From positions 124,001-188,000 of the forward strand of contig NZ_JALLPL010000001.1 of assembly GCF_023276355.1 (NCBI RefSeq): a stretch of DNA of 64,000 bases, read 5' to 3'. The DNA is from Haloplanus sp. XH21 (lineage in GTDB: Archaea > Halobacteriota > Halobacteria > Halobacteriales > Haloferacaceae). The notes below the pieces were generated by a model. The model saw only the letters and a program-made list of their open reading frames with translations, was not told where the DNA came from and ran no database searches. Shown in pieces: positions 9,385 to 45,632 of this stretch (within the stretch, counting starts at the first letter, position 1; every line of letters starts with the position of its first letter). The translations under genes were made by a program, and so were the position numbers.

Positions 9385-10427
9385 GCGTCGTGAGGGGCGT
9401 TGAGACACATCGTCCCGGGTTCGTCACGACACTCACACTGTCTGAGGCCGGCGTATTCAGGGTCGTAGCCGGCGACGAAGGGTTCGACCAGATCCGCGAG
9501 CGCGCCGATGAACCGCTCGTCGTCGTAGGGGATGGGCACGCGGTAGAAGTCGAGCCCGCGCTCCTCGGCCTCCTCGCGGAGTTCGATGTCGAGCTCCGAG
9601 AGCGTCTCGCTCTGTTCGTGCATGAAGCTCACCGGTTCGACCACGACCCGTTCGGCGTCGACGGTTTCGATGACATCCTCCACGTCGGGGTCGGTCCAGT
9701 CCACATCGCGGTTCTCGTGGTTCTGGTAGCCGAGTGCGTAGTCGTCGACGCCGAGCGACGCAGCCACCACGTCACAGAACTCCTCGACGTACTCCTCGTA
9801 GCGGCTGCCTTCGTCGAGATAGTACTGGGGCGTGCCGTGGGCGGAGAAGACGAGGCGCGTGTCGCCGCCGAGCGAGAGGTCGTTCGCCTCGACGAACGAT
9901 CGGATGTTATCGACGCGGGTGCGGGTGTACGCGGGGTGTTTGTGCCAGCCGGTGAGCCGGTCGGTGGGAACGTCCCATCCCACCTCGTCGAGCGCCTCGT
10001 CGAGTTCGTCGAGCGACTGGACGGTCGTCGAGGGGCCACAGAGGGGGTAGACGGGCAGGCCGACCAGGTGATCCACGCCGTCGTCGCGGGCGGCCTCCAC
10101 CGCGTCGGTGATGAACGGCGCCGTGTACTGCATACCGTGATAGGTTTCGACGTCGTAGCCGCGGCGATCGAGTTCGTCGCCGAGCAGCGACGCCTGCGCG
10201 CTGGCGTGGTCGATGAGCGGCGAGCCGCCGACTTCCTCGTACTCCTCAAGAAGACCGGGGGCGCGGCGTTCGGCCAGTTGGCGAGACCGCTCTCGGGCCT
10301 CCCGCTCGGTCGCCTCCCCCTCGATCGACGCGTTCGCAAAGAAGATGCGCTCGAGGTAGTCGACGACGGTGTCACGGTCCGTCCCCGTCGGTTCGCCGAA
10401 GTTGAGCAAGACGACGCCGGAGGTCAT
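9381..10427 (-). CDS. hemH: Ferrochelatase (probably coproporphyrin type) with C-terminal Cys cluster
   Basis: A 348-residue enzyme inserting Fe(II) into a porphyrin. MTSGVVLLNFGEP begins the domain, LVFSAHGTPQYYLDEG holds the catalytic His, and GYQNHENRDVDW plus PVSFMHEQSETLSELD hold the conserved Glu. Residues C331, C333 and C341 in QCECRDEPGTMC, together with C130 in YPLCGPS, mirror the one-plus-three cysteine layout of [2Fe-2S] ferrochelatases. The start at 10427 is chosen over 10496 because GGTTTTGTATCG lies upstream as a promoter and the domain starts immediately. First gene of a two-gene operon with the oxidase. Confidence 0.93.
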   Translation of the reverse strand: MTSGVVLLNFGEPTGTDRDTVVDYLERIFFANASIEGEATEREARERSRQLAERRAPGLLEEYEEVGGSPLIDHASAQASLLGDELDRRGYDVETYHGMQYTAPFITDAVEAARDDGVDHLVGLPVYPLCGPSTTVQSLDELDEALDEVGWDVPTDRLTGWHKHPAYTRTRVDNIRSFVEANDLSLGGDTRLVFSAHGTPQYYLDEGSRYEEYVEEFCDVVAASLGVDDYALGYQNHENRDVDWTDPDVEDVIETVDAERVVVEPVSFMHEQSETLSELDIELREEAEERGLDFYRVPIPYDDERFIGALADLVEPFVAGYDPEYAGLRQCECRDEPGTMCLNAPHDA

Positions 10428-10588
10428 ACTCCGCCTAGGGGTAGGTCGATACAAAACCTGTCGGTCATCCCGAGCGTATGGGTTTGGCCGGATCATTTAA
10501 CTCGGTCGAGCGGGCGCGCCGTGCCCCCGAAATCGGCCCGACTAACGCTATAGTAATCGTTATACGCGGGGTGGACTAGGCCCCACGT

Positions 10589-11449
10589 ATGCAACGACGC
10601 GCTGCGGCCATCTACGTCGCGTTCTTTATCGTGCTCGGCGCGGCGTCGTACTCGGTGATCGCAACGGCCACTGCGCCGACCGTCGAGTTCGACGATCCGG
10701 ACCACCGGCTCTCACAGGGCGATCAGTTCTCGGTCGACGACCGGCAGTACACCGTCTCGGCGATCACCGCAGAGACATCCGGCGGGGGCGGCCACGGCGG
10801 CGGCGCGAGCGTCACCCGCTCGGGCGAACTCTCGTGGACGAACGACTCGGCACGCTACACCGCGACCTGGGAGCACAACGCGACCGTCACGTACCAAGAC
10901 GACCAGTACCGCGTCGTCGTCGGCGAGGGCGACGATCCGACGACGTTCCGGCTACAGGAGGAGATCAACCGGAGCGCCATCCTCCAGGAGGATCCGAACG
11001 TCCGTGACGAACTCGTCACCGTGAACGGCACCGAGTACGTCGTCGAGGAGTCCGGCGAGAACCGCACGCTCACGCCGGCCAGCGAGTATTTCCCGGCGCC
11101 GGCGTCCACGCAGTACAGCGAGGGCGACCGCCTCCAGTACCAGGGGAACGCAACGACGGTCGACAGCGTCGCCAGCGAGAGCGTGACGCTCGCGTGGACC
11201 GCGCCGCGGACCAACACGGTCGAGGTCGATAACGAGGCCAACGTCACGCTCAGCGGGCAGCAGTACGTCGCGTACTTCCCCGACAACAGCACGCTGGTCC
11301 TCGAAAGCGATTACGGCGTGTACGAGCGCCAGACCGCAGAGATCGACGAGTACCACGGCCACGTCAACGGTCTCTGGGGCGTCTCCATCGTGAGTTTCGC
11401 CACGGCGATCATGCTGCTCGGCATGGCGTACATGCCGTCGCGGTACTGA
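10589..11449 (+). CDS. Cell-surface protein with two membrane helices, function unknown
   Basis: A 286-residue protein with an N-terminal helix (AAIYVAFFIVLGAASYSVIAT) and a C-terminal helix (GVSIVSFATAIMLLGMAYM), enclosing about 225 residues likely exposed outside the cell. The ectodomain has at least seven N-x-T/S sequons (for example NDSA, NATV, NGTE, NRTL, NVTL, NNST), consistent with an N-glycosylated haloarchaeal surface protein. It appears to contain two repeated short beta units built around the pattern GD-x-F-x-V-x-x-x-x-Y-x-V. A TATA-like GTTATACG lies near 10558. No family or partner is recognised. Confidence 0.7.
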   Translation: MQRRAAAIYVAFFIVLGAASYSVIATATAPTVEFDDPDHRLSQGDQFSVDDRQYTVSAITAETSGGGGHGGGASVTRSGELSWTNDSARYTATWEHNATVTYQDDQYRVVVGEGDDPTTFRLQEEINRSAILQEDPNVRDELVTVNGTEYVVEESGENRTLTPASEYFPAPASTQYSEGDRLQYQGNATTVDSVASESVTLAWTAPRTNTVEVDNEANVTLSGQQYVAYFPDNSTLVLESDYGVYERQTAEIDEYHGHVNGLWGVSIVSFATAIMLLGMAYMPSRY

Positions 11450-11534
11450 GTTACCCGCAGTTTCGTCGCGGTTCCAACAGATCGTGTAGTGAACTTCGAG
11501 CTGGCACAGTGCTCCAAAAAACCGGCGGCAGCAA

Positions 11535-12476
11535 TCAGAACGCGTGTGCGTCGTCGTCGTAGCCACAGAGTTCGTCGTAGAGGTCGGTGCGTCGGTCCCG
11601 CGGGATGACGTTGTGGTCGTTCCAGGTCTTCTGTTTCCGGGCGTCCATGAGGTTGCAGTCCTCGACCAAGAGGAGTTCCTCGTCTTCCTGGCTCGCGGGG
11701 CCCGCGATGGGGTTTCCAGCGGGGTCGACGACGAGACTCCGACCGAGGAACGGCTGGCCGCGCTCGGTGCCGACGCGGTCCGCACAGGCGAACCAGACCG
11801 TGTTCACGTGGGCGTTCGAGACGGCAAGGTAGTTCGCCCGAGCGAGTTCGTCCTCGTCCATCTGCCCCGACTGTTCGTACTCGTTGATCGGCACCCAGTT
11901 CGTCGGTTCGGCGATGATGTCGGCACCCTTGCCCGCCTGAATCCGGGTCAGTTCGGGGAACCACTGGTCGTAACAGATCTGCATCCCGATGCGACCGATC
12001 TTCGTCTCGAACACCTCGACATCGTCGCCGGGTTCGAACCAGAGTTTCTCCTCGTTCCAGAGGTGCACCTTCCGGTGCGTGCCGATGTAGCCGTCGGGAC
12101 CGACGAGGATCGACGAGTTGTAGAGCAGGTCGCCGTCCTGTTCGGCGTAGCCACCGACGATGTAGGCGTCGTGTTTCGCGGCGAGGTCGATCCATCGCTG
12201 TGCCGTCTCCCCCTCGGGGATCGGTTCGGAGAGCGACCGTGCCTCCTCGCGGGAGTTGAAGACGTACCCCGAGTTGGCGAGTTCCGGCAACACGATGAAA
12301 TCGGCGCCCTGCTCGGCGGCGTTCTCGATGAACTCGCAGGACTTCTCGCGGTTCCCCTCGAGGTCACCGACCCGCGGTTCGAACTGTGCACAGGCGATCG
12401 TGACGAGCGATTCCCGTCCCGGCTGGCGTTCGTCGACGATCGGCGCGTCCCGTTCGACCGCGTCAGGTTGTGACAT
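11535..12476 (-). CDS. Nitrilase-superfamily amidohydrolase (beta-ureidopropionase / carbamoylputrescine amidase type)
   Basis: A 313-residue carbon-nitrogen hydrolase. The Glu-Lys-Cys triad is visible: Glu in FIVLPELANSGY, Lys in GTHRKVHLWNEE and Cys in GMQICYDQWFPE. The insert WNEEKLWFEPGDD and the C-terminus resemble N-carbamoyl-amide hydrolases more than true nitrilases. It would release CO2 and NH3 from an N-carbamoyl compound, or cleave a small amide. The start at 12476 lies about 27 nt after a CTTTTGCT element on the minus strand. It follows the M20-type carbamoylase gene with only 55 nt between, and both are divergent from an amide-type ABC transporter, suggesting uptake and breakdown of a ureido or amide nitrogen source. 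Confidence 0.85.
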   Translation of the reverse strand: MSQPDAVERDAPIVDERQPGRESLVTIACAQFEPRVGDLEGNREKSCEFIENAAEQGADFIVLPELANSGYVFNSREEARSLSEPIPEGETAQRWIDLAAKHDAYIVGGYAEQDGDLLYNSSILVGPDGYIGTHRKVHLWNEEKLWFEPGDDVEVFETKIGRIGMQICYDQWFPELTRIQAGKGADIIAEPTNWVPINEYEQSGQMDEDELARANYLAVSNAHVNTVWFACADRVGTERGQPFLGRSLVVDPAGNPIAGPASQEDEELLLVEDCNLMDARKQKTWNDHNVIPRDRRTDLYDELCGYDDDAHAF

Positions 12477-12531
12477 ACCGTACAGTAGGGGCGGGTAGAG
12501 CAAAAGCGTTAGTGATAGCGCGACGGCGCAG

Positions 12532-13791
12532 TCACGCACCACCCATCGAGGCGACAGCCTCCGCGAGCACCGCCGTCGCAGTCGCACAGTCCGTCCAGTC
12601 GGTCCACTCACGGGGGCTGTGAGAGACGCCGTCGCGCGAGGGGGCAAAGAGTAGGGCGGCGTCCGTCACGTCCGCGACGGACATGGTGTCGTGGAAGGCG
12701 CCGGAGTGGAGGTCGAGCGTCTCGACGCCGAGCCGGTCGCCGGCGGCGTGGACCGACTCCCTGAGACGCAGGCTCATATCCGTCGGTTCCTGATCGAACT
12801 CCCGAACGAGTGCCGTCGCCACCCCACGCTCCGCTTCGAGACGCGACAGCTCCCGGATGAGCGTCTCGACGACGCCCTCGATGGCGTCGGCGCTGACATC
12901 CCGCACGTCGAGGCTCAGTTCGACCTCGCCGGGGATGACGTTGACCGCGTCGGGCGAGACGTCGAGATGGCCGACGGTGCCGACCAGCGTGTCGGGAGCC
13001 CCGTCGGCCGTGGCCGCGTCTTCGACCGCGAGGACGAGTTCGCTCGCCGCTGTCAGCGCGTCGGTCCGCTCGGTCATCGGGGTCGATCCAGCGTGGTTCG
13101 CGTCGCCGGTCACGGTCACTTCGCCGTGGGTAACGCCAGCGATGGTCGTGACGACGCCGACCGGGACGCCGGCCCGCTCCAGCCGCGTCGCCTGTTCGAC
13201 GTGGAGTTCGAGCCAAGCGTCCCAGCCGGCTGCATCGAGTCGCCCCTCGCCCCGATACCCGATGTCGTCGAGTGCGTCGGCCAGCGTGATTCCGTCGTCG
13301 TCGGTGAGCGCGAGCGCGTCCTCGACGGACCGGTGCCCGGCGGCCACGGAGGATCCGAGGAGGCCGTCGGCAAAGCGCGTCCCTTCCTCCTCCGTGAACG
13401 AGACGACATCTACGGGGCAGTCGGGATATCGCTCTGCCACCTGCAGCGCCCGGACCGTCTCGACCCCCGCGTACACCCCGAGAACGCCGTCGAAGATACC
13501 GCCGCGGGGCACGGAGTCTAGATGACTCCCGACGGCGATGGGCGCAGCGTCCGGATCCGCGCCGGGCGGCGTCCAGCGACCGGCGATATTTCCCACCGCG
13601 TCGACGCGAACGTTCATGTTCGCGTCTTCCAGACGGTCGACGAGTCGGTCCCGCGCCTGACCGTTCGCCGGCGTGCCGGTGAGGACCGTCCGTCCCCGTC
13701 CCTCGTCGGCGTCGACGGCACCGAAGGCAGCCGTCGCTTCGATGTCGGCCCGCAAGCGACTCTCGTCGATCGGTGGTGTGTCATCGGTCAT
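12532..13791 (-). CDS. M20-family N-carbamoyl amino acid hydrolase / allantoate amidohydrolase-like
   Basis: A 419-residue zinc enzyme. Metal ligands are seen in IAVGSHLDSVPRGGIFDGVLG (His and Asp), in VVSFTEEEGTRF (Glu-Glu) and in LELHVEQATRLE (His), with a final His in SHSPRE near the C-terminus. GDANHAGSTPM is the dimerisation-domain signature of the hydantoinase/carbamoylase subfamily. The substrate is probably an N-carbamoyl amino acid, beta-ureidopropionate or an allantoate-like ureide. The start at 13791 sits 27 nt after GTTTATGAA (13818-13826). It appears to be co-transcribed with the nitrilase-fold gene and is divergent from the transporter genes. Confidence 0.9.
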   Translation of the reverse strand: MTDDTPPIDESRLRADIEATAAFGAVDADEGRGRTVLTGTPANGQARDRLVDRLEDANMNVRVDAVGNIAGRWTPPGADPDAAPIAVGSHLDSVPRGGIFDGVLGVYAGVETVRALQVAERYPDCPVDVVSFTEEEGTRFADGLLGSSVAAGHRSVEDALALTDDDGITLADALDDIGYRGEGRLDAAGWDAWLELHVEQATRLERAGVPVGVVTTIAGVTHGEVTVTGDANHAGSTPMTERTDALTAASELVLAVEDAATADGAPDTLVGTVGHLDVSPDAVNVIPGEVELSLDVRDVSADAIEGVVETLIRELSRLEAERGVATALVREFDQEPTDMSLRLRESVHAAGDRLGVETLDLHSGAFHDTMSVADVTDAALLFAPSRDGVSHSPREWTDWTDCATATAVLAEAVASMGGA

Positions 13792-29521: not shown

Positions 29522-29567
29522 AGCCTAGGCCGGAATTTGAATCCGGGGTCTCGTCCTTACCAAGGAC
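29522..29567 (-). other. attL: partial tRNA-Thr copy
   Basis: AGCCTAGGCC through CTTACCAAGGAC repeats the 3' half of the tRNA-Thr gene (acceptor 3' strand, T arm, variable region, anticodon stem-loop) with three substitutions. Two of these, in the T arm, would weaken pairing. The 19 nt TCTCGTCCTTACCAAGGAC at the anticodon end are identical, suggesting the crossover lies there. The 5' half of a tRNA is missing, so this is an attachment-site remnant and not a gene. Confidence 0.9.
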
Positions 29568-30637: not shown

Positions 30638-31321
30638 ATGTTCTTTACTCGGTTTCGGTCGCACTGGATGTTGATGCCAACTTGGCAAAGACGGACACTC
30701 CAGATTCTCCCTCTATTCGGCCTCGTCTTTGTCATCGGTGTTCACTGGTTATATTCGCCAGCGGCCTTATTCGAGAATCTCGACGAACGTGGATGGATGC
30801 TCGTAGCCGTTGGCGTGACTATCTTCTATCTGATTCGTCCCTTCGTACTCTGGCCGCTGAGCCTCGCCTCTGTGTTCCTCGGGTATCTCGTCGGATTTCC
30901 GAGTGGCGTGCCGCTCGTCTTGACTGGAACCTTGGTCACGTGTTTCCCGCCGTTCCTTCTCGCAGACTACTTTCAGGATGTGAATGGCTACGTCTCACAG
31001 ATCTCGGCAACTGGTGAGTCTATTGTGACGACGACAGGCGAACTTCGGGGGATGGTCGCCGCTCGACTATCACCCGCGCCCGCAGATAGTGTCTCCATTG
31101 GCGCTGGCTTGGCCGGTATCTCCAGTTGGTACTTTGCGCTCGGGACTCTCATCGGTGAACTACCCTGGGCTATCTTCTACGTCACTATCGGACAATCACT
31201 CCAAAGCTTCTCTTCGGGTACAGTTCAGACGGTCAATATCGAGTTCCTGCTGATCGTCAGTTGCATTGCAGTGCTTCTGTTAGCACGACCGATCTACCAA
31301 TTTATATTCCAAACCCAGTAG
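30638..31321 (+). CDS. VTT/DedA (TVP38/TMEM64) family membrane protein
   Basis: A 227-residue membrane protein. FVLWPLSLASVFLGYLVGFPSG is the conserved re-entrant region of the VTT/SNARE-associated domain, and LAGISSWYFALGTLIGELPWAIFYVTIG with a Gly-Pro-like break is the second. DedA/VTT proteins act as lipid scramblases or transporters, including of polyprenyl phosphates in bacteria. In this island it could recycle or flip the polyprenyl-phosphate carrier used by the UbiA-type enzyme at 32951. It lies on the opposite strand to the UPF0104-PHP-UbiA operon, converging on it. Confidence 0.8.
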   Translation: MFFTRFRSHWMLMPTWQRRTLQILPLFGLVFVIGVHWLYSPAALFENLDERGWMLVAVGVTIFYLIRPFVLWPLSLASVFLGYLVGFPSGVPLVLTGTLVTCFPPFLLADYFQDVNGYVSQISATGESIVTTTGELRGMVAARLSPAPADSVSIGAGLAGISSWYFALGTLIGELPWAIFYVTIGQSLQSFSSGTVQTVNIEFLLIVSCIAVLLLARPIYQFIFQTQ

Positions 31322-31335
31322 CGAACCAGCTTAAA

Positions 31336-32316
31336 TCAGTTGCTCGGGCTTGTGACTTGACCCTGATTTCTCACAAACCGGTAGACGACAAAGACACACG
31401 TTCCTAGGATTGCTCCGTACCAGAGCGTGCCAACCCGGATAATTACCGTCGCACTCACCGCAATAGTCTGGGTGTATCCTAAGATGACGAGCATCCCGAC
31501 CATACTGGCTTCTGCGGCCGCTAATCCCCCGGGGAGGAGGCTGGCCGCACCCACGACCGATCCCAACCCGAACACGAACAACGCGGCGAGGAGGGTCGCT
31601 TCTGAACTGAACCCACTTAGTACCGACCACAGCGCAACTCCCTCTAAGCCCCACGCAACGAGGCTAATGAGAAACGCGATACTGAGCGGTCGCACCTGGA
31701 ACAGCGTGTACGTATTCTCATAGAACTCCTCTAACTCAGTTGCATACGACCCGACAACCGGAAGCGTCTCCAACCATCTCAAAACACGCAGACAAAACGT
31801 TCGCCACTGAAGCAGGCTGATGCCGAGAAGGAACAGGAGGATCACGCCGATCAATACGGCGGACGATCGCTGATAGATGAGTAGGCCGAGAAACGCGAAC
31901 GCCGATAGCGCGATCAGATCAGTCACTCTCTCAGCACCGACCACGGACGCTGTCTGACTGACTGGTACATCGCGGAGGTCGCGGAGGAACCATGCCTTCC
32001 AGACTTCACCTGCTTTTCCAGGTGTCACGACCATCATCAGGCCGCTAAAAAACACGATCAGACTCGTCTTGAGTGGGATGTCAATGTCTAAGTGGCGGAG
32101 ATAGTATTCCCACTTGAGAAACCGTACACCGTAGCTAATCGTAGCGAGGAGGAACACAACACCAACCCGCCAGAGATCAACCGCAAGGAGTGCCGAAACA
32201 ACTTGCGAGGCATCACCGACGACGAACAGCCCAAAGAACACGGCAACCGTCAGGAGTGCTGTGACCCAGAGCCCGTGTTGGCGGATCGATCGTTGGACTG
32301 TCGAAAGGACACGCAT
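31336..32316 (-). CDS. PF03706 (UPF0104, lysylphosphatidylglycerol synthase TM region) flippase-like membrane protein
   Basis: A 326-residue protein with eight or nine membrane helices. VVFLLATISYGVRFLKWEYYL, SLIVFFSGLMMVVTPGKAGEVWKAW and AERVTDLIALSAFAFLGLLI are the conserved blocks of PF03706; the P-G-K-x-G-E motif is clear. LLPGGLAAAEASMVGMLVILG is the later conserved segment. Relatives include MprF N-domains, which flip lipids, and the C-terminal half of AglD of haloarchaeal N-glycosylation. Here it may move a lipid-linked sugar across the membrane. Its ATG overlaps the PHP gene stop by 1 nt (TGATG). Confidence 0.85.
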   Translation of the reverse strand: MRVLSTVQRSIRQHGLWVTALLTVAVFFGLFVVGDASQVVSALLAVDLWRVGVVFLLATISYGVRFLKWEYYLRHLDIDIPLKTSLIVFFSGLMMVVTPGKAGEVWKAWFLRDLRDVPVSQTASVVGAERVTDLIALSAFAFLGLLIYQRSSAVLIGVILLFLLGISLLQWRTFCLRVLRWLETLPVVGSYATELEEFYENTYTLFQVRPLSIAFLISLVAWGLEGVALWSVLSGFSSEATLLAALFVFGLGSVVGAASLLPGGLAAAEASMVGMLVILGYTQTIAVSATVIIRVGTLWYGAILGTCVFVVYRFVRNQGQVTSPSN

Positions 32317-32954
32317 CAGAGATTCACCATTCTGAGTGCGTCATTCAGTTTTGTCGCAGTATGACCTGAGAGGTACCCCCCTCGTCCTGCTGTCTGGGTC
32401 GTTGTAGATTCGATAGCCGCACGGAGTGACTGATCACACAGTGTTGTAGACCGTCCCACCTCCATCGGAAAGTGGGCATCACTTCCGCCCGTGATCGCTA
32501 AGTCGTGCTGTGTAGCGAACTCCCGGGCACGACGGTTGAATCGGGGGAGCAGACAACGTGAATTTTGAGCCTCAACAGCATCAACGCGTGAGGCAACTGC
32601 GTCGAGGTCTGTGTCGTAATACTCTCGAAATCGGTCAAACGGATGTGAGAGGATCGCAATCCCATCTTGCTCGTGGACGTGTTCAATTACGGTTACTGGG
32701 TCCGCTTGCGGTGGTTCATCGTTGACGTACAACGCGAGAAGGTGGCCCTGTGTCGTCGTTACTTCCACACCAGGAATCACAGTTAGGCCAGCAGGCGCGA
32801 GATCGGCGACCTCATCGTATCCCGCCAACGTATCGTGATTTGTGATAGCAATTCCATCTAATCCGGCATCAACAGCCGCATTAACAACGTCAGCGGGAGA
32901 TGCTCGTGAGCACGGTGAGGCGTCGGTATGGACTTGGAGGTCGTATCGATTCAC
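32316..32954 (-). CDS. PHP-family phosphoesterase
   Basis: A 212-residue metal-dependent hydrolase. Motif I reads YDLQVHTDAS, with the usual first His replaced by Gln but the second kept. AITNHDTLAGYDE, VIPGVEVTTTQGH, AILSHPFDRF and AITGGSDAHF give the remaining ligands, including the hallmark SDAH. PHP proteins hydrolyse phosphate monoesters or nucleotides. Between a phosphoribosyl-polyprenyl synthase and a flippase, the attractive role is removing the 5-phosphate from polyprenyl-phosphoribose-5-phosphate; that is inference. Overlaps UbiA by 4 nt (ATGA) and the next gene by 1 nt. Confidence 0.85.
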   Translation of the reverse strand: MNRYDLQVHTDASPCSRASPADVVNAAVDAGLDGIAITNHDTLAGYDEVADLAPAGLTVIPGVEVTTTQGHLLALYVNDEPPQADPVTVIEHVHEQDGIAILSHPFDRFREYYDTDLDAVASRVDAVEAQNSRCLLPRFNRRAREFATQHDLAITGGSDAHFPMEVGRSTTLCDQSLRAAIESTTTQTAGRGGYLSGHTATKLNDALRMVNL

Positions 32955-33862
32955 TGTATCACCTCAACAGCTATCTCTGGCACGTTGTAGAGGACAGCAA
33001 TAGCGACGACACTCCAGAGGATAAGATTCACGACGGAGGGGCGATCCGTGAGGAGATATTCGGGCTGACCAGCAATATTCGTTGTGTGGACAAGATGGTG
33101 ATAGCGAAACACGCCAAAAAATGCGAACGGGAGCGTTGCCATCATCGTCGGGTCCGTCCGTGAGAACGTGTAGAGCGAGTACGACATCAGCAGAGTTGCC
33201 ATCACCATCACAAGGAGTTGATCAATATTGTTCTCCGAATACTCGCCCAAGACATCACGTGTTTCCTCTGGGTTGGTCGCCACCTCCAGTTCATTCCGAC
33301 GCTTTCCAAACGCGAGTACCAACGCAAGGAGGAACGTACTCACTATTAACCACGGACTCAAGAATACCTCGATAGCGATGACTCCCGCGATAGCGCGGAG
33401 CACGAACCCGATAGCGACGATCAGTACATCAACGAAGACGAACTGCTTCAGAACGAGCGAATACAGGGCGTTCTGTGCGAGGTAGGCAAGTAAAACTGCG
33501 AGAAAGAGGGGGCCGAGACTGTAGGCGGCTCCGAGCCCGATACCAGCTAAGATGAGACCGAAGATTACGGCAACCGGGACTGACACCTGTCCGCTTGCAA
33601 TTGGACGGTGCTGTTTTTCCGGATGATTGCGGTCTTCTTCAACGTCGCTAATGTCGTTGAAAATGTATGTTGCGCTGGCGACAGTTGTGAACGCCACAAT
33701 GCCGACCATGAGGCTAAGCCAGGCATCCCAATTAAGAATATTCTGCGAAAAGACGATCCCGAGAAGCATTACGCCCTGTTTGTACCATTGCCACGGGCGA
33801 ATCTCTCGAACCAGTCCAGTGACTGTGGTTACTGGATTAATCGTCTGCGATGAGCTGGCCAT
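32951..33862 (-). CDS. UbiA prenyltransferase, decaprenyl-phosphate phosphoribosyltransferase (DPPR synthase) type
   Basis: A 303-residue enzyme with about nine helices. Features match mycobacterial DPPR synthase (Rv3806c) closely: IRPWQWYKQG (residues 21-30), the Asp-rich NDISDVEEDRNHPEK (69-83) followed by RPIASG, LRAIAGVIAIEVFLSPW (155-171), FGKRRNEL (185-192) and a late GQPEYLLTDR. That enzyme moves 5-phosphoribose from PRPP to polyprenyl phosphate at the membrane. The PHP, flippase-like and epimerase neighbours fit a lipid-linked pentose pathway. ATG at 33862 is the first in frame. First gene of a three-gene overlapping operon. Confidence 0.88.
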   Translation of the reverse strand: MASSSQTINPVTTVTGLVREIRPWQWYKQGVMLLGIVFSQNILNWDAWLSLMVGIVAFTTVASATYIFNDISDVEEDRNHPEKQHRPIASGQVSVPVAVIFGLILAGIGLGAAYSLGPLFLAVLLAYLAQNALYSLVLKQFVFVDVLIVAIGFVLRAIAGVIAIEVFLSPWLIVSTFLLALVLAFGKRRNELEVATNPEETRDVLGEYSENNIDQLLVMVMATLLMSYSLYTFSRTDPTMMATLPFAFFGVFRYHHLVHTTNIAGQPEYLLTDRPSVVNLILWSVVAIAVLYNVPEIAVEVIQ

Positions 33863-33932
33863 TCAGTGTCTAATCCAGAGACCAACAGGACAATAAAGAT
33901 ACTGTTAACTTGTGTGATTGAGGAATAGGAAC

Positions 33933-34355
33933 CTACTCACTTTGGCTGAGATAGGCGTCTCTGGTTTGTATATCTGAGTAGAGATCCGCAAGGACGTGCG
34001 TATAGATGGTAACGGTCGTGACGAAGGCTAAATACTCGCTAATAAACCATACTAATCCGATGAGAACGCCGCCGATAAGAAGATGACTAAACAACCGTTG
34101 ATCCCGCCATATATCACCTCGCTCGAATATCGATGCTTGGTCTACGAATACCTGCGACGGGCTCCGAATACAACGAGTGAGGTTAGACCAATCACCGCGA
34201 TTAATCCGTCCAATTACGAAGTGATCCAAGTCAATTCCGACTCCCAGAACGACCACATATATCAGTATGTATAATTGTTGGTGAAATTCTGGCGCAGTAA
34301 CTGCCAGTGGGACGCCTATTATACCAGAAATAATCGCGTGGCTCCGCGAGTACAT
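33933..34355 (-). CDS. Membrane-bound metal-dependent hydrolase-like protein (YdjM/PF04307 type)
   Basis: A 140-residue membrane protein with about four helices. YSRSHAIISGIIGVPLAV gives the N-terminal His, VLGVGIDLDHFVIGRIN the Asp-Leu-Asp-His motif, LFSHLLIGGVLIG the central His and YTHVLADLYSD the last His/Asp pair. These match the YdjM/YfhO-like family PF04307, whose enzymatic activity is only predicted. ATG at 34355 directly precedes the conserved domain; an earlier in-frame ATG at 34412 would add 19 residues. It is co-oriented with the UbiA operon, 70 nt away. Confidence 0.7.
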   Translation of the reverse strand: MYSRSHAIISGIIGVPLAVTAPEFHQQLYILIYVVVLGVGIDLDHFVIGRINRGDWSNLTRCIRSPSQVFVDQASIFERGDIWRDQRLFSHLLIGGVLIGLVWFISEYLAFVTTVTIYTHVLADLYSDIQTRDAYLSQSE

Positions 34356-34520
34356 CGTACAGTCGTAGTGTTCATAGGAGATTCGTAGTTTTACCGTTCT
34401 ACTGGTCGACACCGGATTGAAGCAGATCCGCTTGATCAGTAGGTTCGAAAACAGGTGTCAGGGCTCATCGGTATGCGGCAATAGGAAGTATAAAGACATT
34501 ACGCTAACTTCCCCGACATA

Positions 34521-35612
34521 ATGAGTACGACTGAGCAGATGGACTCCACGGATAGCCAGTATGATTCTGTCGTGGTCACTGGTGGAACTGGCTTTCTGGG
34601 ACTTCACACGTGCCAGTACTTTGCTGAGCAGGGCTGGGACGTAACCGCACTCGATCTCAAACCGTTCAACGAGGAAGACGATACGGAAGACATCGACTAC
34701 ATAGAGGGGGATGTGCGTGACGAGGAGAAAGTATCCGAGGCAATCGAGGAAGCTGACGCGGATGTCATCGTCCACAGTGCGGCGGCGCTCCCGCTGTGGG
34801 ACGACGACGAAATCTGGGAGGTGACAGTCGAGGGTACTCGCTCGGTATTGTGGGCCGCAAAAGAACACGATGTCGAGCGGGTGGTCTATATTTCGTCCAC
34901 AGCTGTCTACGGTACCCACGATACCCATCCAATTACCGAGGAATCGCCGTTAGACGGTGTCGGACCCTACGGAGACGCGAAGATCGAAGCAGAGAACGTC
35001 TGTCGAGACTTCCGTCGAATGGGGATGTGCGTTCCGATTATTCGCCCGAAGACGTTCATCGGGCCACAGCGACTTGGCGTGTTCCAGGTCTTGTTCGACT
35101 GGATCGAGGATGGTGCAAACATCCCGATGGTCGGGTGGGGAAACAACAAGTATCAGTTACTCCACGTTCACGATCTCGTTCGAGCAATCGAGATGATGTT
35201 CACCTTGGATGAAAGCGAGGTGAATGACGAGTTCAACGTGGGTGCGACGGAATACGGGGCGATGAAAGAAGACTTCCAAGCCCCGATTGACGAAGCGGGG
35301 ACAAGGAAGCGAGTTGTCGGAACGCCAGCGACACTGACCCGCTTTGCTCTCCGAGTGTTGAACAAACTCAATTTGTCACCACTCTACCCGTGGGTATATG
35401 AAACGGCTCACGAGGACTCGTACGTCTCCGTCGAGAAGCTTTGTAACCTCGGCTGGGAACCAGAGTACTCGAACCAAGAGGCGCTGGTTGACACGTATCA
35501 GTGGTACTTAGAAAACTATGAAGAAAGTGAAGATGAAACGGGGAAAGATCATCGTGTTGCGTGGGATCAAGGAGCTTTAGAGATAGTTAAGAAGGTTTTC
35601 AAGCAATTTTAG
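34521..35612 (+). CDS. Extended SDR NAD-dependent sugar epimerase/dehydratase
   Basis: A 363-residue enzyme with GGTGFLG (residues 21-27), IEGDVRD (61-67), SST (125-127), and the catalytic Tyr150/Lys154 in PYGDAK. IIRPKTFIGPQRLG and the GNNKYQLLHVHDL segment resemble nucleotide-sugar or sterol-type epimerases of the extended SDR class. A strong TATA (GTATAAAGAC near 34487) 27 nt upstream gives a leaderless mRNA. In this context it may epimerise a lipid-linked or nucleotide-linked pentose; the second enzyme of the mycobacterial pathway, a DprE1-type FAD oxidase, is not seen. The substrate is unknown. Confidence 0.85.
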   Translation: MSTTEQMDSTDSQYDSVVVTGGTGFLGLHTCQYFAEQGWDVTALDLKPFNEEDDTEDIDYIEGDVRDEEKVSEAIEEADADVIVHSAAALPLWDDDEIWEVTVEGTRSVLWAAKEHDVERVVYISSTAVYGTHDTHPITEESPLDGVGPYGDAKIEAENVCRDFRRMGMCVPIIRPKTFIGPQRLGVFQVLFDWIEDGANIPMVGWGNNKYQLLHVHDLVRAIEMMFTLDESEVNDEFNVGATEYGAMKEDFQAPIDEAGTRKRVVGTPATLTRFALRVLNKLNLSPLYPWVYETAHEDSYVSVEKLCNLGWEPEYSNQEALVDTYQWYLENYEESEDETGKDHRVAWDQGALEIVKKVFKQF

Positions 35613-36747
35613 ATAGTGGTGTTTGATACTCTTGGAAGCAAAAGTAAGCTATAACGAGTTCGTGTATACCAAAGATCGTACCTACCCAAGGTACCAATCC
35701 ACCTACTCCTAATATAAACGATACTCCTCCCCCGACGATCCCCAATATTCCACTACCTACAGCAACCAGCGCAATCATCGTTGTGAGGGTTGATTCTTCT
35801 GAGAAGGCTACAAGAGATATTGGAATGAGAATCGGGAACCCCAGAAAAAGTAATCGTGTAGTTGAAACACCAAGGAAAATCTGAAGAGATACGGGAATTA
35901 TGGCTACTAAGGATGCCGTCAAGATCGGCTTCCGAAGATCCACAGATCCAAATGGGAATAATATCCAGAGAGATCCAAATATAATGTAAATATTCCCGAG
36001 GAACATTATCGGGCTTGTTAGAATACTTGATTGCAAGTGTTCAAGAACCCGAATAACCTCTGATATGGTATAATACGATTCAAAACCGAAAATCAACCTG
36101 ATACCCAGATAAGGAATAATCCCTGCTATCCCTATTGGGATTCCTTGCCTAATTCCAGCCCAAATACCATTTTCGAACCATATCTTCAGACCATAGATTC
36201 CCACCAATAGAAGTGTTGTTTCTTTTGCCAACATACCAATAAATATCGAAGAAGAAAGAAGAAGAATATTATCGTCTCTAATAGCTATTAACCCAACCAT
36301 CAGGAAAACATATGAGAGTGGATCGACAGTCGAAGTTATTTCCCATAAATATATTAAAACCATAGGAGATAATAAGAATGAAAGCATCCCGAGTTGGCTC
36401 AATTTCTCATTAAAATTTAGCTTCTCTAAGTAAATATACAGAAGTGAAGAGACAGTTGCTAATGATAATATGTTCACTACAACAAAGCCGGTCGTGGCTT
36501 CAACCGGTAACAACCATACGATGACTGGGGTGAGGATTCGGTATCCGAAAGGAGCACCAGCAAATTGAGTCGGATTACTTGCCATTGAAAAGTATGCTTG
36601 ATCACCCGCGGTAGTGGCTGTGGACATTGAGAATGTAGAGAAATTATAAAATATAAAGAATAATGCTGTTATATATGCTAAACTCCCTATAAAGTATTTT
36701 ATTTCTGTTTTGTATCGATTCCCGAAGCGTTGAAGAGTGAATCTCAT
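35599..36747 (-). CDS. Multi-pass membrane protein, GT-C glycosyltransferase-like
   Basis: A 382-residue protein with about ten helices and markedly AT-rich codons. After the first helix, TTAGDQAYFSMASNPTQFAG places an Asp (D49) in the first extracytoplasmic loop, followed by PFGYRILTPVIVWLLP and ITSTVDPLSYVFLM. This layout is usual for GT-C enzymes, which transfer sugars from polyprenyl-phosphate donors. KETTLLLVGIYGL and other family-specific patterns are weak, so the assignment is tentative. If correct, it could use the lipid-linked pentose made by the neighbours. It overlaps the convergent epimerase gene by 14 nt. Confidence 0.6.
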   Translation of the reverse strand: MRFTLQRFGNRYKTEIKYFIGSLAYITALFFIFYNFSTFSMSTATTAGDQAYFSMASNPTQFAGAPFGYRILTPVIVWLLPVEATTGFVVVNILSLATVSSLLYIYLEKLNFNEKLSQLGMLSFLLSPMVLIYLWEITSTVDPLSYVFLMVGLIAIRDDNILLLSSSIFIGMLAKETTLLLVGIYGLKIWFENGIWAGIRQGIPIGIAGIIPYLGIRLIFGFESYYTISEVIRVLEHLQSSILTSPIMFLGNIYIIFGSLWILFPFGSVDLRKPILTASLVAIIPVSLQIFLGVSTTRLLFLGFPILIPISLVAFSEESTLTTMIALVAVGSGILGIVGGGVSFILGVGGLVPWVGTIFGIHELVIAYFCFQEYQTPLSKIA

Positions 36748-39231: not shown

Positions 39232-41175
39232 CTATGAGCGGTATTTCTTGGTTGGGCGGCCGCGGCCTTCCGACTCTGTTGTATGTTCAATACGGCCCTG
39301 TTCGACAAGACGGTCACGGGCGGCAAGATACTGTTCGCCGATCTCAGTTTTAAATTCGGTCCCGGTCATCCAGCCATCCCACTGATCCAACTTCTCAACT
39401 ACGTGGTCTTCTCGCTCGATTCGTTCTCCGTGTGCCTCTATCTCGCTGGTTAACTTGTCTCTCAACCGTGGCACCGACATCGTCACATGGGACTCATCAA
39501 AGTCCGTTCTGAAGTCGGGTGTATTTGACCAAATGTACGCCCGCACTCCGTCTTTCTGAGCGGGACGGATCCGGTGTAGTGCATCCCGCATCTCGCCCTG
39601 GCATTTCTCGAAGCTGAGTTCTTCGTCAGAAATGCCCGTCATCAGTTGATTGAGTTTTAACACCTCGTCGGGGTAGCCTGGCTTCCCGTGGAGAACTACA
39701 GCCTCGCAATCTTCGTATTTATTGCTCCCACTCAGACCGTAGTAATGGGCGATCTCGTAATCGTCCCCTTCGACGAACCCTTCGTTATCGAGGGCATCCC
39801 GGATGCTCTCTTTCAAGGCCTTCTTCGAGACGATGAGCGTCTTGCGGTCTCGAAGTGCCTCTCGTCGCACAGCCAACGTAGTTAACTCACGCAGGTTACG
39901 GGCCAACCTTTTGTCTTCTCCCAACGCCCAGATCCCTGCGCCATGCTTGCCAAGCTGAAGTACATCGACTGGCGGTTTCAGGTCGTCTGAAACCTCGACA
40001 ACGGGAAGTTTGAATACCGCCTCAGAGATCTCCTTGGGCCACTCTGTGGCGAGAACAAAGACAGGCTTCTCGCGGGCAACACTCCGCAATGGGGAGAGGT
40101 CAGCATAAGCAATCTCAAGTTTTGGTTGATCTCCGCCCGTGACGCTCCAGAGGTGCTCAATCACGTATTCCTGAGTTAGGCTTCGGTCGCTCTCCATCGC
40201 GTCAGCAATCACAGCCCGTAGGTCAGGGATTGCATCCAGGATGGGCAACACGATTGGACTACCAGTTCGGTCCGATTGCTCGCCCCATTGCTGGCCGACC
40301 ACTCTGTCGAACGCTTCGTTCTCGTCGTATTCCTCGTAGAACGCAGTCCATTCTTCGAACAGCGAAACCGTATCGCCGTCGTCTTCGATCACCGCCTTGG
40401 TAGTGTCGAGGAGATCTGCAGTCTTTGAGATCAGATCCGCCACCTCCTGATCGCCAGGATCGCTCTGGTCGAGGACATCCAACTCCGCCCGGATGTCGCT
40501 GAGTTCTACTGTGATCTGGTCCGTTACGAGGGAACCATACGGGGACTCGTCGATAATGACTGCGTCAATAAGCTCCCACGTGGAGGGTTGATCCGAGTCG
40601 TCGGAATCGAACACGTCTGGAAGAACCGAAAGGTGCTGATGGACTGCCATGAAGCTCGGGGCTGAAGCCTTTACAGAATCCGTCGGTGGTACTTTCTCCG
40701 GATCCCAACTCCCTACCGACCTGTACGCAGTGAAGTACTCACAACTGTCCCGAAGATGGCATCCACGGCACCATTCCTGACTAACGGTGTTCGGGACTTG
40801 GTGATGTTTACCAGCGTAGTCGTCGTTCTCGCAGACGCGATCTTTCCCTCTAAAGTGATAGTCGAACCGATTACCTAAGGCTGTTCCGTCCAAGTCCTCA
40901 TCTATATCCTGGTGTCGAGGAGCGAATACTGCGGTGAATCCGAGGTCGTACGCCACAGTTTCGATCAACCCAGTGCTCTTTCCCGTCCCTTGTGTCGTTT
41001 TAACGTGGACGACGAACGGCTTGTCTGGCGACCACTGCTCTACCAGTTTGACAGTCGCTAATGCGATTTTACGCGATCGCTCCTCGATGGTGCCGTATGC
41101 ACTGAGTTTGAGTACCAGATCCTCAGGTGTCTGATATTCCGTCGAGTCGTCGCCTGTTCGCTGAGATCCTGTCAT
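39232..41175 (-). CDS. Helicase-like ATPase with four-Cys cluster and C-terminal winged helix (replication gene candidate)
   Basis: A 647-residue protein. Walker A is TTQGTGKST (60-68) and a DExx box is VIIDES (206-211). Between them, C115, C136, C139 and C145 (in RVCENDD and WCRGCHLRDSCEYF) lie where XPD/Rad3-type helicases place a [4Fe-4S] cluster. LRDRKTLIVSKKAL starts the second RecA-like half, and the last 60 residues (GEQYLAARDRLVEQGRIEHT...RGRPTKKY) form a winged helix. It is probably the element's replication or recombination helicase. ATG at 41175 is the first in frame. It follows a small RHH-like gene. Confidence 0.7.
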   Translation of the reverse strand: MTGSQRTGDDSTEYQTPEDLVLKLSAYGTIEERSRKIALATVKLVEQWSPDKPFVVHVKTTQGTGKSTGLIETVAYDLGFTAVFAPRHQDIDEDLDGTALGNRFDYHFRGKDRVCENDDYAGKHHQVPNTVSQEWCRGCHLRDSCEYFTAYRSVGSWDPEKVPPTDSVKASAPSFMAVHQHLSVLPDVFDSDDSDQPSTWELIDAVIIDESPYGSLVTDQITVELSDIRAELDVLDQSDPGDQEVADLISKTADLLDTTKAVIEDDGDTVSLFEEWTAFYEEYDENEAFDRVVGQQWGEQSDRTGSPIVLPILDAIPDLRAVIADAMESDRSLTQEYVIEHLWSVTGGDQPKLEIAYADLSPLRSVAREKPVFVLATEWPKEISEAVFKLPVVEVSDDLKPPVDVLQLGKHGAGIWALGEDKRLARNLRELTTLAVRREALRDRKTLIVSKKALKESIRDALDNEGFVEGDDYEIAHYYGLSGSNKYEDCEAVVLHGKPGYPDEVLKLNQLMTGISDEELSFEKCQGEMRDALHRIRPAQKDGVRAYIWSNTPDFRTDFDESHVTMSVPRLRDKLTSEIEAHGERIEREDHVVEKLDQWDGWMTGTEFKTEIGEQYLAARDRLVEQGRIEHTTESEGRGRPTKKYRS

Positions 41176-41947: not shown

Positions 41948-43057
41948 ATGAGAGTATTCGAAACAGGTGACGGGCAGACCGTTGGACTAACCCAACTGGA
42001 CCAGCGGCCTGTCGAAACCGAACAGGAACTCGAATCGATCCTCAACCAGAACCCGGACGTGCTTCTCGACGAACCGGTGCTCATTTTCAGCCGTCAACCG
42101 AGCCTCGACCCTGGCCTTCCGGATCTCGTCGGACTCGATCAGTACGGGAACGTCATCGTGTTCGAGCTCAAGAAGGGACTCAGCGGGACCGGAAGCGCAA
42201 GTGAGGAAACGATTCTCAGCCAGCCACAGAACTACGCGCGAGCCCTTGGCCCGTGCGACTACGACGACCTGAACGAACTCTACCAGGAGTACCAACAGCA
42301 GATCCGGAGTGGCGAGTGGGCTGTCGATGAATCACTCATCCCTGCCGAGTCGCTGGACGATGCGTTCGAGGCAGTCTTCGGACGGGTGATCAAGCCCAGG
42401 GACTACAACCAGTATCAGCGGATGGTCATCGTCGCCGAGACCATCACTGGCCAAACCGCGGAGAACGTGCGTTACCTCCAGGACCAAGGCCTGCATCTCC
42501 AAGCCCAAGAGGTGCAACTGTTCGAGTCTGCCGACGGCGCATCGGAGACGTTGGCAACGACAGTTGTCGTCGATTACGATGACAGGCGGGTGCGTCCGAG
42601 TCGTGTCGGCAACCCCACCTACGACGAGGTCAACCGCGAGATCCTCGAACGCGTCTATCCGCAGATTCAGTCGCTCGTCGGCGGTTCGACCGTCGGCCAG
42701 CTCGTAAATTCCTTCGACAGTCGAGAGCCGCGACTCCACTCAGAGCATCTGGACCATCCCGAGGCAGTCGAGTTCAGTCTGCGAGTCAAGCCCCGGACCG
42801 ACGGACAAGTTCGAGTAACCCTCGATGTCGATAACGACGAGGAGGCTGTCAAGACGATTCGGGAGCACGCGGACCTGTTCGAGGAGCACGGCTTCGAGGT
42901 GAGCCACACGCGGTCGCGCCACCGTGTGGTGATGTTCACCTGGGAAATGGACAGTTTCGAACCGCTGAATCAGGATGAGGTACTCGACGAGATCGCCGAG
43001 ACGTTCGCCCTTCTCGTTGAACTCAGTCACGAGGTGTTCGGGGCCTCACCGCAGTAA
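41948..43057 (+). CDS. NucS/DUF91-like PD-(D/E)XK nuclease
   Basis: A 369-residue protein. The N-terminal 150 residues carry a nuclease core: ELESILNQNPDVLLDEPVLI, LPDLVGLDQYGNVIVFELKK with the Asp and the E-x-K motif, then SQPQNYARAL, as in NucS/EndoMS C-terminal and DUF91 domains. The remainder (about 200-369) has no domain I recognise; LRVKPRTDGQVRVTLDVDN and onwards is alpha/beta. A TATA element at 41909 lies within a palindromic operator. It may act in element recombination or exclude competing DNA. Divergent from the PhiH1-type repressor. Confidence 0.75.
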   Translation: MRVFETGDGQTVGLTQLDQRPVETEQELESILNQNPDVLLDEPVLIFSRQPSLDPGLPDLVGLDQYGNVIVFELKKGLSGTGSASEETILSQPQNYARALGPCDYDDLNELYQEYQQQIRSGEWAVDESLIPAESLDDAFEAVFGRVIKPRDYNQYQRMVIVAETITGQTAENVRYLQDQGLHLQAQEVQLFESADGASETLATTVVVDYDDRRVRPSRVGNPTYDEVNREILERVYPQIQSLVGGSTVGQLVNSFDSREPRLHSEHLDHPEAVEFSLRVKPRTDGQVRVTLDVDNDEEAVKTIREHADLFEEHGFEVSHTRSRHRVVMFTWEMDSFEPLNQDEVLDEIAETFALLVELSHEVFGASPQ

Positions 43058-44206: not shown

Positions 44207-45406
44207 CTACCAGATCTGCTCGGCGGCGTCGTTGCGAGTTTCAGCGTCGGAGTGAAGGTACTTCATCGTCGTAGTGACGCTCTTGTGACGAAGCTGTTCC
44301 TTTGCGTGATGTGGGCCGATGTGGTTCGCCCAGTAGGTTGCTACCCCATGACGAATCGAGTACCACGTGATCTCCTTGTGCTCCGGAATGGGGAGATCTC
44401 CCTCGTCAACCAGACGGCTCAGTAGATAGTTACACGACTTCGAACTGTACTTGCTCCCTTGCTTCGTGAGCCAGAGTTCGTTCCGATCGTTGTACTTGTC
44501 GTACGTTGCTCGCTCCTCTAACCACCGCTTGAGGACTCGTGACGTACGCTTCTTGATCGAGCAGTTCCAGTGGGCTTCGTTCTTCGTGGACTCGTCCTTG
44601 GGGATGTTGAGCTCGTTATTCTCAAGATTGACCCAGTCCGTGCTGGCTCGACCGACTTCGATGGGACGGAGTCCAGTGTCCAGCGTCACCGCGATGATCG
44701 ATGGCTCCTTCCACGAGTTCGCCTGTTCGAAGTGTTCAGGGCCGACCTCGGACTTGGGGACACCGAGGCGCTGGGAGACGTGTGTCTTCAGCCGATCACG
44801 CTCCTCGGTGGACATTTCACTGTGATAGCTCTTGACAGAGTTGTATTCCAGCGCGGCCTGATAGAGTGGCTTGAACGCTGTCCGGCGAAGGTAATCACGT
44901 TCGTCACCGGTTGCCTGACTCAGCTCGGGTTTCGGCTCCCAGTCGTAATCGGTGCCGTGGATGTGGTTCTGGTACTTGAATAGCCGTTGTACAGCTTTCC
45001 CGTAGTGAAGCACGCTGGAGTCGGCCATCTCGTCTGAGCGATTGAGGAGGCGGATGAAGCGGTCAGCGTGATCCGGTGTGAGGGCTGTCGTGTAGGCGTC
45101 TTCGTCCTCCCAGAGCCACCGAAAGACGATCTCCAGCTTGTAGTGTGTTGACTGAAGGGTGCTCTGTGCGAGGCCCTGACCTTTCTCTGGGTGCTTCCCG
45201 TATGTGGCGAGCCACGAGAGAACTTCCTTCTTGAAGTCGTGGTAGTCCTCGACCATATTGAGCCCGTACGCTTCGAGGTCTTCGCGTGAGCGTTCGCTGA
45301 CGAGCGGGAAGTCGAACTCGACAGACTCCGGAGCAGGCGGAAGGCCCTCCCGTGGAGTGCCATCTCCGGCGGGAAGGTTGTCGAGGGGATCGGGCTGATT
45401 GGTCAT
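44207..45406 (-). CDS. int: Tyrosine recombinase (integrase) of the element
   Basis: A 399-residue site-specific recombinase. An N-terminal SAM-like core-binding domain spans about 40-170. The catalytic domain has Arg247 in TLDTGLRPIEVG, Lys-rich IKKRTSRVLKRW, Arg352 in WYSIRHGVATYW, Arg373-His374 in QLRHKSVTTTMKY and the nucleophile Tyr383. The usual box II His (H-x-x-R) is Tyr349 here, as in other haloarchaeal integrases I recall. The start at 45406 overlaps the stop of a 33-residue gene (ATGA). The gene lies 155 nt from tRNA-Thr, its target, and recombines the 46-nt tRNA repeat. Confidence 0.93.
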   Translation of the reverse strand: MTNQPDPLDNLPAGDGTPREGLPPAPESVEFDFPLVSERSREDLEAYGLNMVEDYHDFKKEVLSWLATYGKHPEKGQGLAQSTLQSTHYKLEIVFRWLWEDEDAYTTALTPDHADRFIRLLNRSDEMADSSVLHYGKAVQRLFKYQNHIHGTDYDWEPKPELSQATGDERDYLRRTAFKPLYQAALEYNSVKSYHSEMSTEERDRLKTHVSQRLGVPKSEVGPEHFEQANSWKEPSIIAVTLDTGLRPIEVGRASTDWVNLENNELNIPKDESTKNEAHWNCSIKKRTSRVLKRWLEERATYDKYNDRNELWLTKQGSKYSSKSCNYLLSRLVDEGDLPIPEHKEITWYSIRHGVATYWANHIGPHHAKEQLRHKSVTTTMKYLHSDAETRNDAAEQIW

Positions 45407-45504
45407 CGGCGCACCCCTCGTTTTGTTTGTGTGCCATGACACGTTTCGGAATCGCAAGACGGCGCGGCTTTCGGGTTGTAGTCTTTTCGGACGTTATTGG
45501 GCAT
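45403..45504 (-). CDS. 33-residue protein coupled to the integrase
   Basis: A tiny basic protein: MPNNVRKDYNPKAAPSCDSE followed by TCHGTQTKRGVRR. It contains Cys17, Cys22 and His23, too few for a clear zinc site unless it dimerises. AGGAG lies about 13 nt before its ATG, and its TGA overlaps the integrase ATG (ATGA). Position suggests a role in recombination directionality or simply translational coupling. No homologue is recognised. Confidence 0.5.
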   Translation of the reverse strand: MPNNVRKDYNPKAAPSCDSETCHGTQTKRGVRR

Positions 45505-45560: not shown

Positions 45561-45632
45561 AGCCTAGGCCGGGATTTGAACCCGGGCTCTCGTCCTTACC
45601 AAGGACGCGCTTTACCGCTAAGCTACCCAGGC
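45561..45632 (-). tRNA. tRNA-Thr (GGT anticodon), element integration site (attR side)
   Basis: A 72-nt tRNA gene read on the minus strand. Acceptor GCCTGGG pairs with CCTAGGC (one G-T wobble), the anticodon stem CGTCC/GGACG holds the loop TTGGTAA, giving anticodon GGT (plus-strand 45598-45600) for Thr ACC codons, and the T arm is CCGGGTTCAAATCCCGG. Discriminator base is T; CCA is not encoded. The 46 nt from the acceptor end to the anticodon stem are repeated at 29522-29567. The intact gene is kept after integration. Confidence 0.95.

Follow-up and report, generated by a model that had tools for sequence, protein, structure and literature searches.

In mycobacteria, the decaprenyl-phosphoryl-arabinose pathway involves Rv3806c, Rv3807c, DprE1/DprE2, Rv3789, and the Emb/Aft proteins. 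The three-component pentofuranose systems of Citrobacter youngae O1/O2 combine a UbiA-type polyprenyl phosphoribose synthase using phosphoribosyl pyrophosphate (PRPP), 5'-dephosphorylation, a flippase, and a GT-C glycosyltransferase acting outside the membrane; a single short-chain dehydrogenase/reductase (SDR) decides between xylose and ribose (Kelly et al. 2024, PMC11127046). That paper calls these systems widespread, with Gram-negative, Gram-positive, and phage examples, one of them phage-borne, and a word search of its text returned no archaeal case. In the gtrAB-gtr(type) seroconversion cassettes of Salmonella and Shigella phages, which are mobile, conserved donor and flippase genes are combined with a variable GT-C gene (PMC11127046). 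Here, we analyzed a stretch of 64 kb from Haloplanus sp. XH21 (the window), in which a low-GC island of 16.0 kb holds overlapping genes for a UbiA protein, a PHP phosphoesterase, and a flippase-like PF03706 protein. With a probability that we put at about 0.78, they belong to a cassette for extracytoplasmic pentosylation, by which a lipid-linked pentose would be made, flipped, and added to surface glycans.

The cassette resembles the systems of Kelly et al. (2024) in its predicted UbiA synthase, 5'-dephosphorylation, single SDR, flippase, and external GT-C enzyme. The SDR is likened to their epimerase by the TGxxGxxG and YxxxK motifs and the linkage to UbiA. In the bacterial systems a HAD phosphatase is fused to UbiA, the flippase is of the MATE type, and the glycosyltransferase is GT136; in the archaeal cassettes these places are held by PHP, PF03706, and GT-C-like proteins of several, probably different, families. 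Searches of the window cassette with Pfam and NCBIfam profiles returned PHP and PF03706 instead of a HAD-family PRP domain and a MATE flippase. Because of these two differences, we consider the cassette to work like the systems of Kelly et al. (2024) rather than to be a member of them.

With the mycobacterial pathway the cassette shares a UbiA protein with equal PRPP-site residues and, beside one haloarchaeal copy, an AftA homolog. It differs in the proposed phosphatase (PHP against PAP2), in the epimerization (one SDR without a DprE1-type enzyme against DprE1/DprE2), and in the proposed flippase (PF03706 against the SMR protein Rv3789). A preliminary description of the locus had taken mycobacteria as the precedent; the nearest precedent is the single-SDR systems and not the DprE1/DprE2 route. 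The gtr cassettes share with the archaeal one the conserved donor/flippase core, the variable GT-C gene, and the location on mobile elements; their hexose donor is made from a UDP-sugar by GtrB, whereas the archaeal pentose donor would be made from PRPP by UbiA, and a change of surface type is suggested by the analogy.

UbiA protein and spread of the cassette

The cassette occupies the following positions of the window:
30638-31321, plus strand: VTT/DedA-family membrane protein, candidate polyprenyl-phosphate recycling transporter (PF09335, 7e-14; putative UptA-like role)
31336-32316, minus strand: PF03706 flippase-like membrane protein, proposed lipid-linked pentose flippase (PF03706, LPG_synthase_TM, 1.4e-39; TIGR00374)
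32316-32954, minus strand: PHP phosphoesterase, proposed 5'-phosphatase of polyprenyl-P-5-phosphoribose (PF02811, PHP, 7.7e-9; PF13263, PHP_C, 2e-12)
32951-33862, minus strand: UbiA-superfamily putative phosphoribosyltransferase of the decaprenylphosphoryl-5-phosphoribose (DPPR) synthase clade (Pfam UbiA, 8.5e-28; NF008977; PRPP-site residues; tree)
33933-34412, minus strand: small membrane protein with a D-x-DH motif, between UbiA and SDR (weak match to an undecaprenyl-diphosphatase model, 20 bits)
34521-35612, plus strand: extended SDR epimerase, proposed epimerase of lipid-linked ribofuranose (PF01370, Epimerase, 1.4e-43; motifs; co-occurrence)
35599-36747, minus strand: putative GT-C-fold membrane protein, proposed final pentosyltransferase and variable module (Foldseek; homologs; no Pfam match)

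UbiA, PHP, and PF03706 share the minus strand, with overlaps of 4 nt between the first two and 1 nt between the last two. SDR and VTT are encoded on the plus strand, and the gene with multiple transmembrane (TM) segments at 35599-36747 is convergent with the SDR gene and overlaps its end. The gene positions, overlaps, and flanking genes reported in the preliminary description were thus all borne out.

The UbiA protein scored 232.7 bits with the NCBIfam model NF008977 (decaprenyl-phosphate phosphoribosyltransferase; naming cut-off 234) and 33-41 bits with models of heme, quinone, and archaeal-lipid enzymes (about 34 for digeranylgeranylglyceryl phosphate synthase). Its only relatives in the PDB were two entries of Rv3806c (8j8j, 1.6e-31). 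Residues were compared using the PRPP and Mg contacts of Rv3806c known from structure and mutagenesis, where Lys28 binds the 5'-phosphate of PRPP and Asn73 and Asp77 bind Mg2+ (PMC10994848). Nine of these residues—R22, K28, Y70, N73, D77, K87, R90, Y138, and K143—are identical in the window protein. Q135 is replaced by N, which is also found in most of the sampled bacterial relatives, and Y157 by F, a natural variant reported in mycobacteria (PMC10994848); K208 is not conserved. In the other archaeal UbiA proteins compared, the position of K28 is occupied by L or A. In the tree, the window protein and Rv3806c formed a clade with support 98/96, for which the program warned of long branches, and the PHP-linked archaeal UbiA proteins formed a group with support 92/83. 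By these sequence comparisons, the window UbiA groups with the DPPR synthase Rv3806c and not with quinone, heme, or geranylgeranylglyceryl phosphate synthases; it has the DPPR-synthase motifs quoted in the preliminary description, with the shared residues at positions that contact PRPP or Mg in the structure of Rv3806c.

Among 391 genomes of the haloarchaeal class (86 genera), UbiA of this type was found in 45 genomes and 18 genera. Of 47 haloarchaeal loci, 44 retain the order UbiA, PHP, PF03706, and 39 have a divergent SDR gene a short distance upstream. When searched for separately, the SDR appeared in 44 genomes, all among the 45 with UbiA, and in none of the 346 others; in two of them (G321, G355) it lies on a different contig from UbiA. 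The co-occurrence has a hypergeometric log10 p of about -57 with genomes taken as independent and p of about 5e-17 by genus, relatedness inflating both values. The linkage of UbiA, PHP, and PF03706 proposed earlier as a point for survey is therefore conserved, and the SDR accompanies UbiA in 44 of 45 genomes. PHP, PF03706, and SDR proteins of six compared cassettes are 68-95% identical to the window versions. The triad of UbiA, PHP, and PF03706 genes recurs in methanogen genomes with an added DUF362 gene. In the five methanogen loci (L137-L141) this gene adjoins the triad; PF04015 was confirmed in L138, and the others have a similar N-terminal sequence.

Several further genes accompany the cassettes. 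The VTT gene adjoins the cassette in 10 loci; its product in the window reached 32 bits with the UptA model NF052604, far under the cut-off of 250. The small D-x-DH membrane protein also occurs in L069, L079, and L081 and is broken in L080. Downstream of PF03706 in L071, L073, L074, L078, L084, and others, there is a gene for a conserved protein of 465-486 aa (cluster c16, 10 genomes), for which 9-12 TM segments are predicted and which belongs to no known family. Genes of aryl-sulfotransferase, sulfotransferase, adenylyl-sulfate kinase, or sulfatase type are often found near the cassette (L145, 14312-16633; L151, 10810-12114; cluster c11 in 15 loci) and may point to sulfated surface glycans. 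In genome G034 (L007/L116), UbiA is a C-terminal fragment and PHP, PF03706, and VTT remain; this locus is a decaying cassette.

Proposed phosphatase, flippase, epimerase, and glycosyltransferase

In another archaeal lineage, an operon (L142) encodes UbiA, a HAD-GtrA fusion, an SDR 50% identical to that of the window, and a GT-C protein of the protein mannosyltransferase (PMT) type. Since HAD and GtrA families, which have phosphatase and flippase roles in bacteria, fill the places of PHP and PF03706 here, these two proteins would act as the phosphatase and the flippase. Bacterial plasmids carry the arrangements UbiA-HAD-GtrA (Lactococcus), UbiA-PAP2 (Marivivens), and PAP2-UbiA (Tsukamurella). 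The place beside UbiA is thus held by PAP2, HAD, or PHP depending on the lineage, which supports the earlier proposal of PHP as an unrelated replacement for the phosphatase. The AlphaFold (AF2) model of PHP had a pLDDT of 91; its best PDB matches are PHP phosphoesterases, among them RNase AM and, as a separate entry, a structure that has AMP and phosphate bound.

The SDR has the motifs TGGTGFLG and Y150-GDA-K154, in agreement with the TGxxGxxG and YxxxK patterns. On bacterial plasmids, genes for its relatives adjoin UbiA in Streptomyces and Nonomuraea; in rhizobia they lie up to about 10 kb from UbiA, and an SMR transporter is encoded there as well. A search of the Haloplanus genome for PF04030 (DprE1-type) gave no match, and an arabinose route of the DprE1/DprE2 type was rejected on this ground. 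One haloarchaeal genome (G195) has two cassettes; in copy b (L080), the SDR gene at 7575-8401, beside an AftA-like GT-C gene, is in pieces, and an intact second SDR gene is present in the other cassette.

The membrane protein encoded at 35599-36747 had no Pfam match and reached 1.9e-8, below the cut-off, with the AZOBR_p60025 cell surface glycopolymer model. In a Foldseek search of the PDB with its low-confidence AlphaFold model, ranks 1-17 were oligosaccharyltransferase, glycosylphosphatidylinositol (GPI)-transamidase subunit U, GPI mannosyltransferase, PMT, and C-mannosyltransferase, that is, GT-C-class or related proteins, and ranks 20 and 21 were ALG6 and EmbB. The predicted model is thus GT-C-like in fold. 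Homologs were found in three other genomes of the 391, all of them cassette carriers, and two directly adjoin the cassette. The neighbors of other cassettes are dolichyl-phosphate-mannose mannosyltransferases, PMT-type proteins, or GT87 proteins; that of G195 copy b is an AftA-family protein (PF12250, 1.5e-24; PDB 8if8, 2.1e-18), the sole one in the haloarchaeal genomes surveyed. In six cassettes with UbiA proteins 72-92% identical, the best pairwise E-value between GT-C proteins was only about 1e-5, so that these proteins are all but unrelated between copies. The constant core with an exchanged GT-C gene between copies, a pattern not noticed in the preliminary description, is what characterizes gtr-type cassettes: a conserved donor core and a variable GT-C gene on a mobile element.

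Integration site and mobility

The island is delimited by the following features of the window:
29522-29567: attL-like copy of the tRNA-Thr 3' end, a 46-nt direct repeat 93% identical to 45561-45606; left island edge, where GC falls
44207-45457, minus strand: tyrosine integrase of the island (PF00589, 3e-15), adjoining tRNA-Thr
45561-45606: attR-like repeat inside the tRNA-Thr gene; right island edge
45561-45632, minus strand: tRNA-Thr (GGT), the integration target; tRNA-Thr(ggt) flanks the G195 copy too

The GC content drops from about 0.67 to about 0.54 between the repeats, beginning and ending at them. The integrase, the tRNA-Thr(GGT) gene, the pair of repeats, and this drop bear out the earlier claim of an integrated element. 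HF1/HF2-like haloviruses encode integrases with about 66% identity to that of the island. Copy a of G195, a genome of another family, has the same tRNA-Thr(ggt) site, an integrase 93% identical to that of the window, and a cassette core 90-93% identical; despite the matching integrase and core, its GT-C protein differs from that of the window.

A tailed-virus-like provirus, Prophage 2 of Halanaeroarchaeum sulfurireducens M27-SA2, contains such a block, listed without functional comment (HLASA_2007-2013; PMC4866403, Table 10). According to the published best hits, PF03706, PHP, UbiA, a small protein, and an SDR are encoded there in equal order; the first and last genes of the block are probably VTT and GT-C, judging by size and position. 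Unlike in this provirus, no capsid or tail genes were found among the open reading frames of the window island that were examined. Scans of IMG/VR for the cassette returned no close relative and one contig with a distant UbiA, and a search of a phage collection returned one short phage record from human feces. The link of the cassette to proviruses is drawn from PMC4866403 and not from catalogued virus contigs. On the IMG/VR contig (L134, 107 kb), the gene for the distant UbiA relative precedes two SDR genes (9534-13280); this set may represent a form of the cassette from bacterial phages.

The equal tRNA-Thr site, integrase, and core in another family, together with the provirus, support the transferability proposed earlier. 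The mobile-island setting holds for the window copy; most hosts carry the cassette in ordinary high-GC DNA or on megaplasmids, with no recognizable island. UbiA is present on four haloarchaeal megaplasmids, and many chromosomal copies sit in high-GC DNA and need not be mobile.

The remaining island genes are mostly outside known families. The gene at 41948-43057 matched the PADLOC candidate defense family PDC-S11 (9.9e-23) and has a weak NucS-like stretch. A motif resembling GTGKST is present in the 647-aa protein encoded at 39232-41175, for which Pfam, NCBIfam, PHROGs, and PADLOC gave no match.

Proposed pathway and alternative explanations

In the proposed pathway, UbiA would transfer 5-phosphoribose from PRPP to a polyprenyl phosphate, dolichyl-type in archaea, on the cytoplasmic side, and PHP would remove the 5'-phosphate. 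The SDR would epimerize the lipid-linked ribofuranose, most likely to xylofuranose by analogy with the bacterial single-SDR systems; arabinofuranose is an alternative, possible because of the AftA homolog in one copy. The PF03706 protein would flip the lipid-linked pentose outward, and the GT-C protein would attach the pentose to a glycan or glycoprotein of the surface. The lipid phosphate set free in this way may be returned by the VTT protein. This proposal is built on the UbiA clade and active-site residues, gene linkage, co-occurrence, replacement of phosphatase and flippase families, the GT-C-like fold and variability, and the mobile element.

Several points weigh against it. The reactions, the sugar, the lipid carrier, the flippase direction, and the target glycan are inferred by computation, and the roles of the PF03706 and VTT proteins are assigned by family and position only. 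The UbiA score is 1.3 bits short of the NCBIfam naming cut-off, and one genome (G345) has UbiA without the SDR. The first metal-ligand His of PHP (H-x-H) is Gln in haloarchaea (DLQVHT); His is kept in one extra haloarchaeal copy and in methanogens, the remaining PHP motifs are conserved, and to judge by its sequence the haloarchaeal enzyme may use fewer metals. The GT-C model has a pLDDT of 55 and no Foldseek E-value under 0.001, and the presence of a multi-TM neighbor within 5.5 kb in 45 of 49 loci is a raw count, uncorrected for background.

It is hardly credible that the UbiA protein is an ordinary prenyltransferase of quinone, heme O, or archaeal lipid synthesis: the weak likeness to those models (33-41 bits) stands against 232.7 bits for the DPPR synthase model, K28 and further PRPP-site residues are kept, and profile, residues, and tree position together led to the rejection of this assignment; the patchy, accessory distribution (45/391 genomes) also speaks against it. 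Improbable, but to a lesser degree, is that UbiA makes lipid-linked ribose and the other genes are mere neighbors without a single pathway, the SDR acting on a nucleotide sugar and PHP on another substrate. The best PDB matches of the SDR are indeed nucleotide-sugar enzymes, and the Gln in PHP is in line with a different substrate; however, the SDR is found with UbiA in 44/44 genomes, even when unlinked, its bacterial relatives lie near UbiA, and HAD, PAP2, and PHP are swapped at one place. The lipid-linked pentose could also serve a secreted polysaccharide or membrane glycolipid instead of S-layer or pilin glycans, the GT-C neighbor then belonging to a separate locus. We find this doubtful, though the least so of the three: GT-C candidates vary by host and sometimes lie downstream of PF03706 instead of upstream of the SDR, and sulfation-type genes occur near many copies, but the rare GT-C family of the window is found elsewhere only in three cassette carriers, and the lone AftA-family protein of the 391 genomes adjoins a cassette.

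Extracytoplasmic pentosylation remains the preferred explanation. With a constant donor core and an exchanged GT-C gene, the cassette would act as a bacterial gtr-type surface-conversion module, here on a tRNA-Thr integrative element. We give even odds to the broader view of an archaeal gtr-like surface conversion, in which proviruses and integrative elements with constant UbiA-PHP-SDR-PF03706 genes and a swappable GT-C gene alter host glycans, and so virus adsorption or mating, and PHP is a third independent family of polyprenyl-phosphoribose phosphatases.

No description of an archaeal lipid-linked pentose pathway was found in the open-access literature searched. The novelty claimed in the preliminary description holds to that extent; the genes themselves had been recorded, since NCBI RefSeq already names haloarchaeal orthologs of UbiA (L146, L151) decaprenyl-phosphate phosphoribosyltransferase and the provirus table lists the block. 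The locus represents a complete, testable gene set in 18 of the 86 haloarchaeal genera sampled, with relatives in methanogens. If PF03706 is the flippase, a function in this large, poorly defined family can be tested by deletion. If the proposed pathway is true, haloarchaea would have a mobile means to alter their surface glycans, and a route that in its mycobacterial form is a drug target would gain a third family of phosphatases and one more family of flippases.

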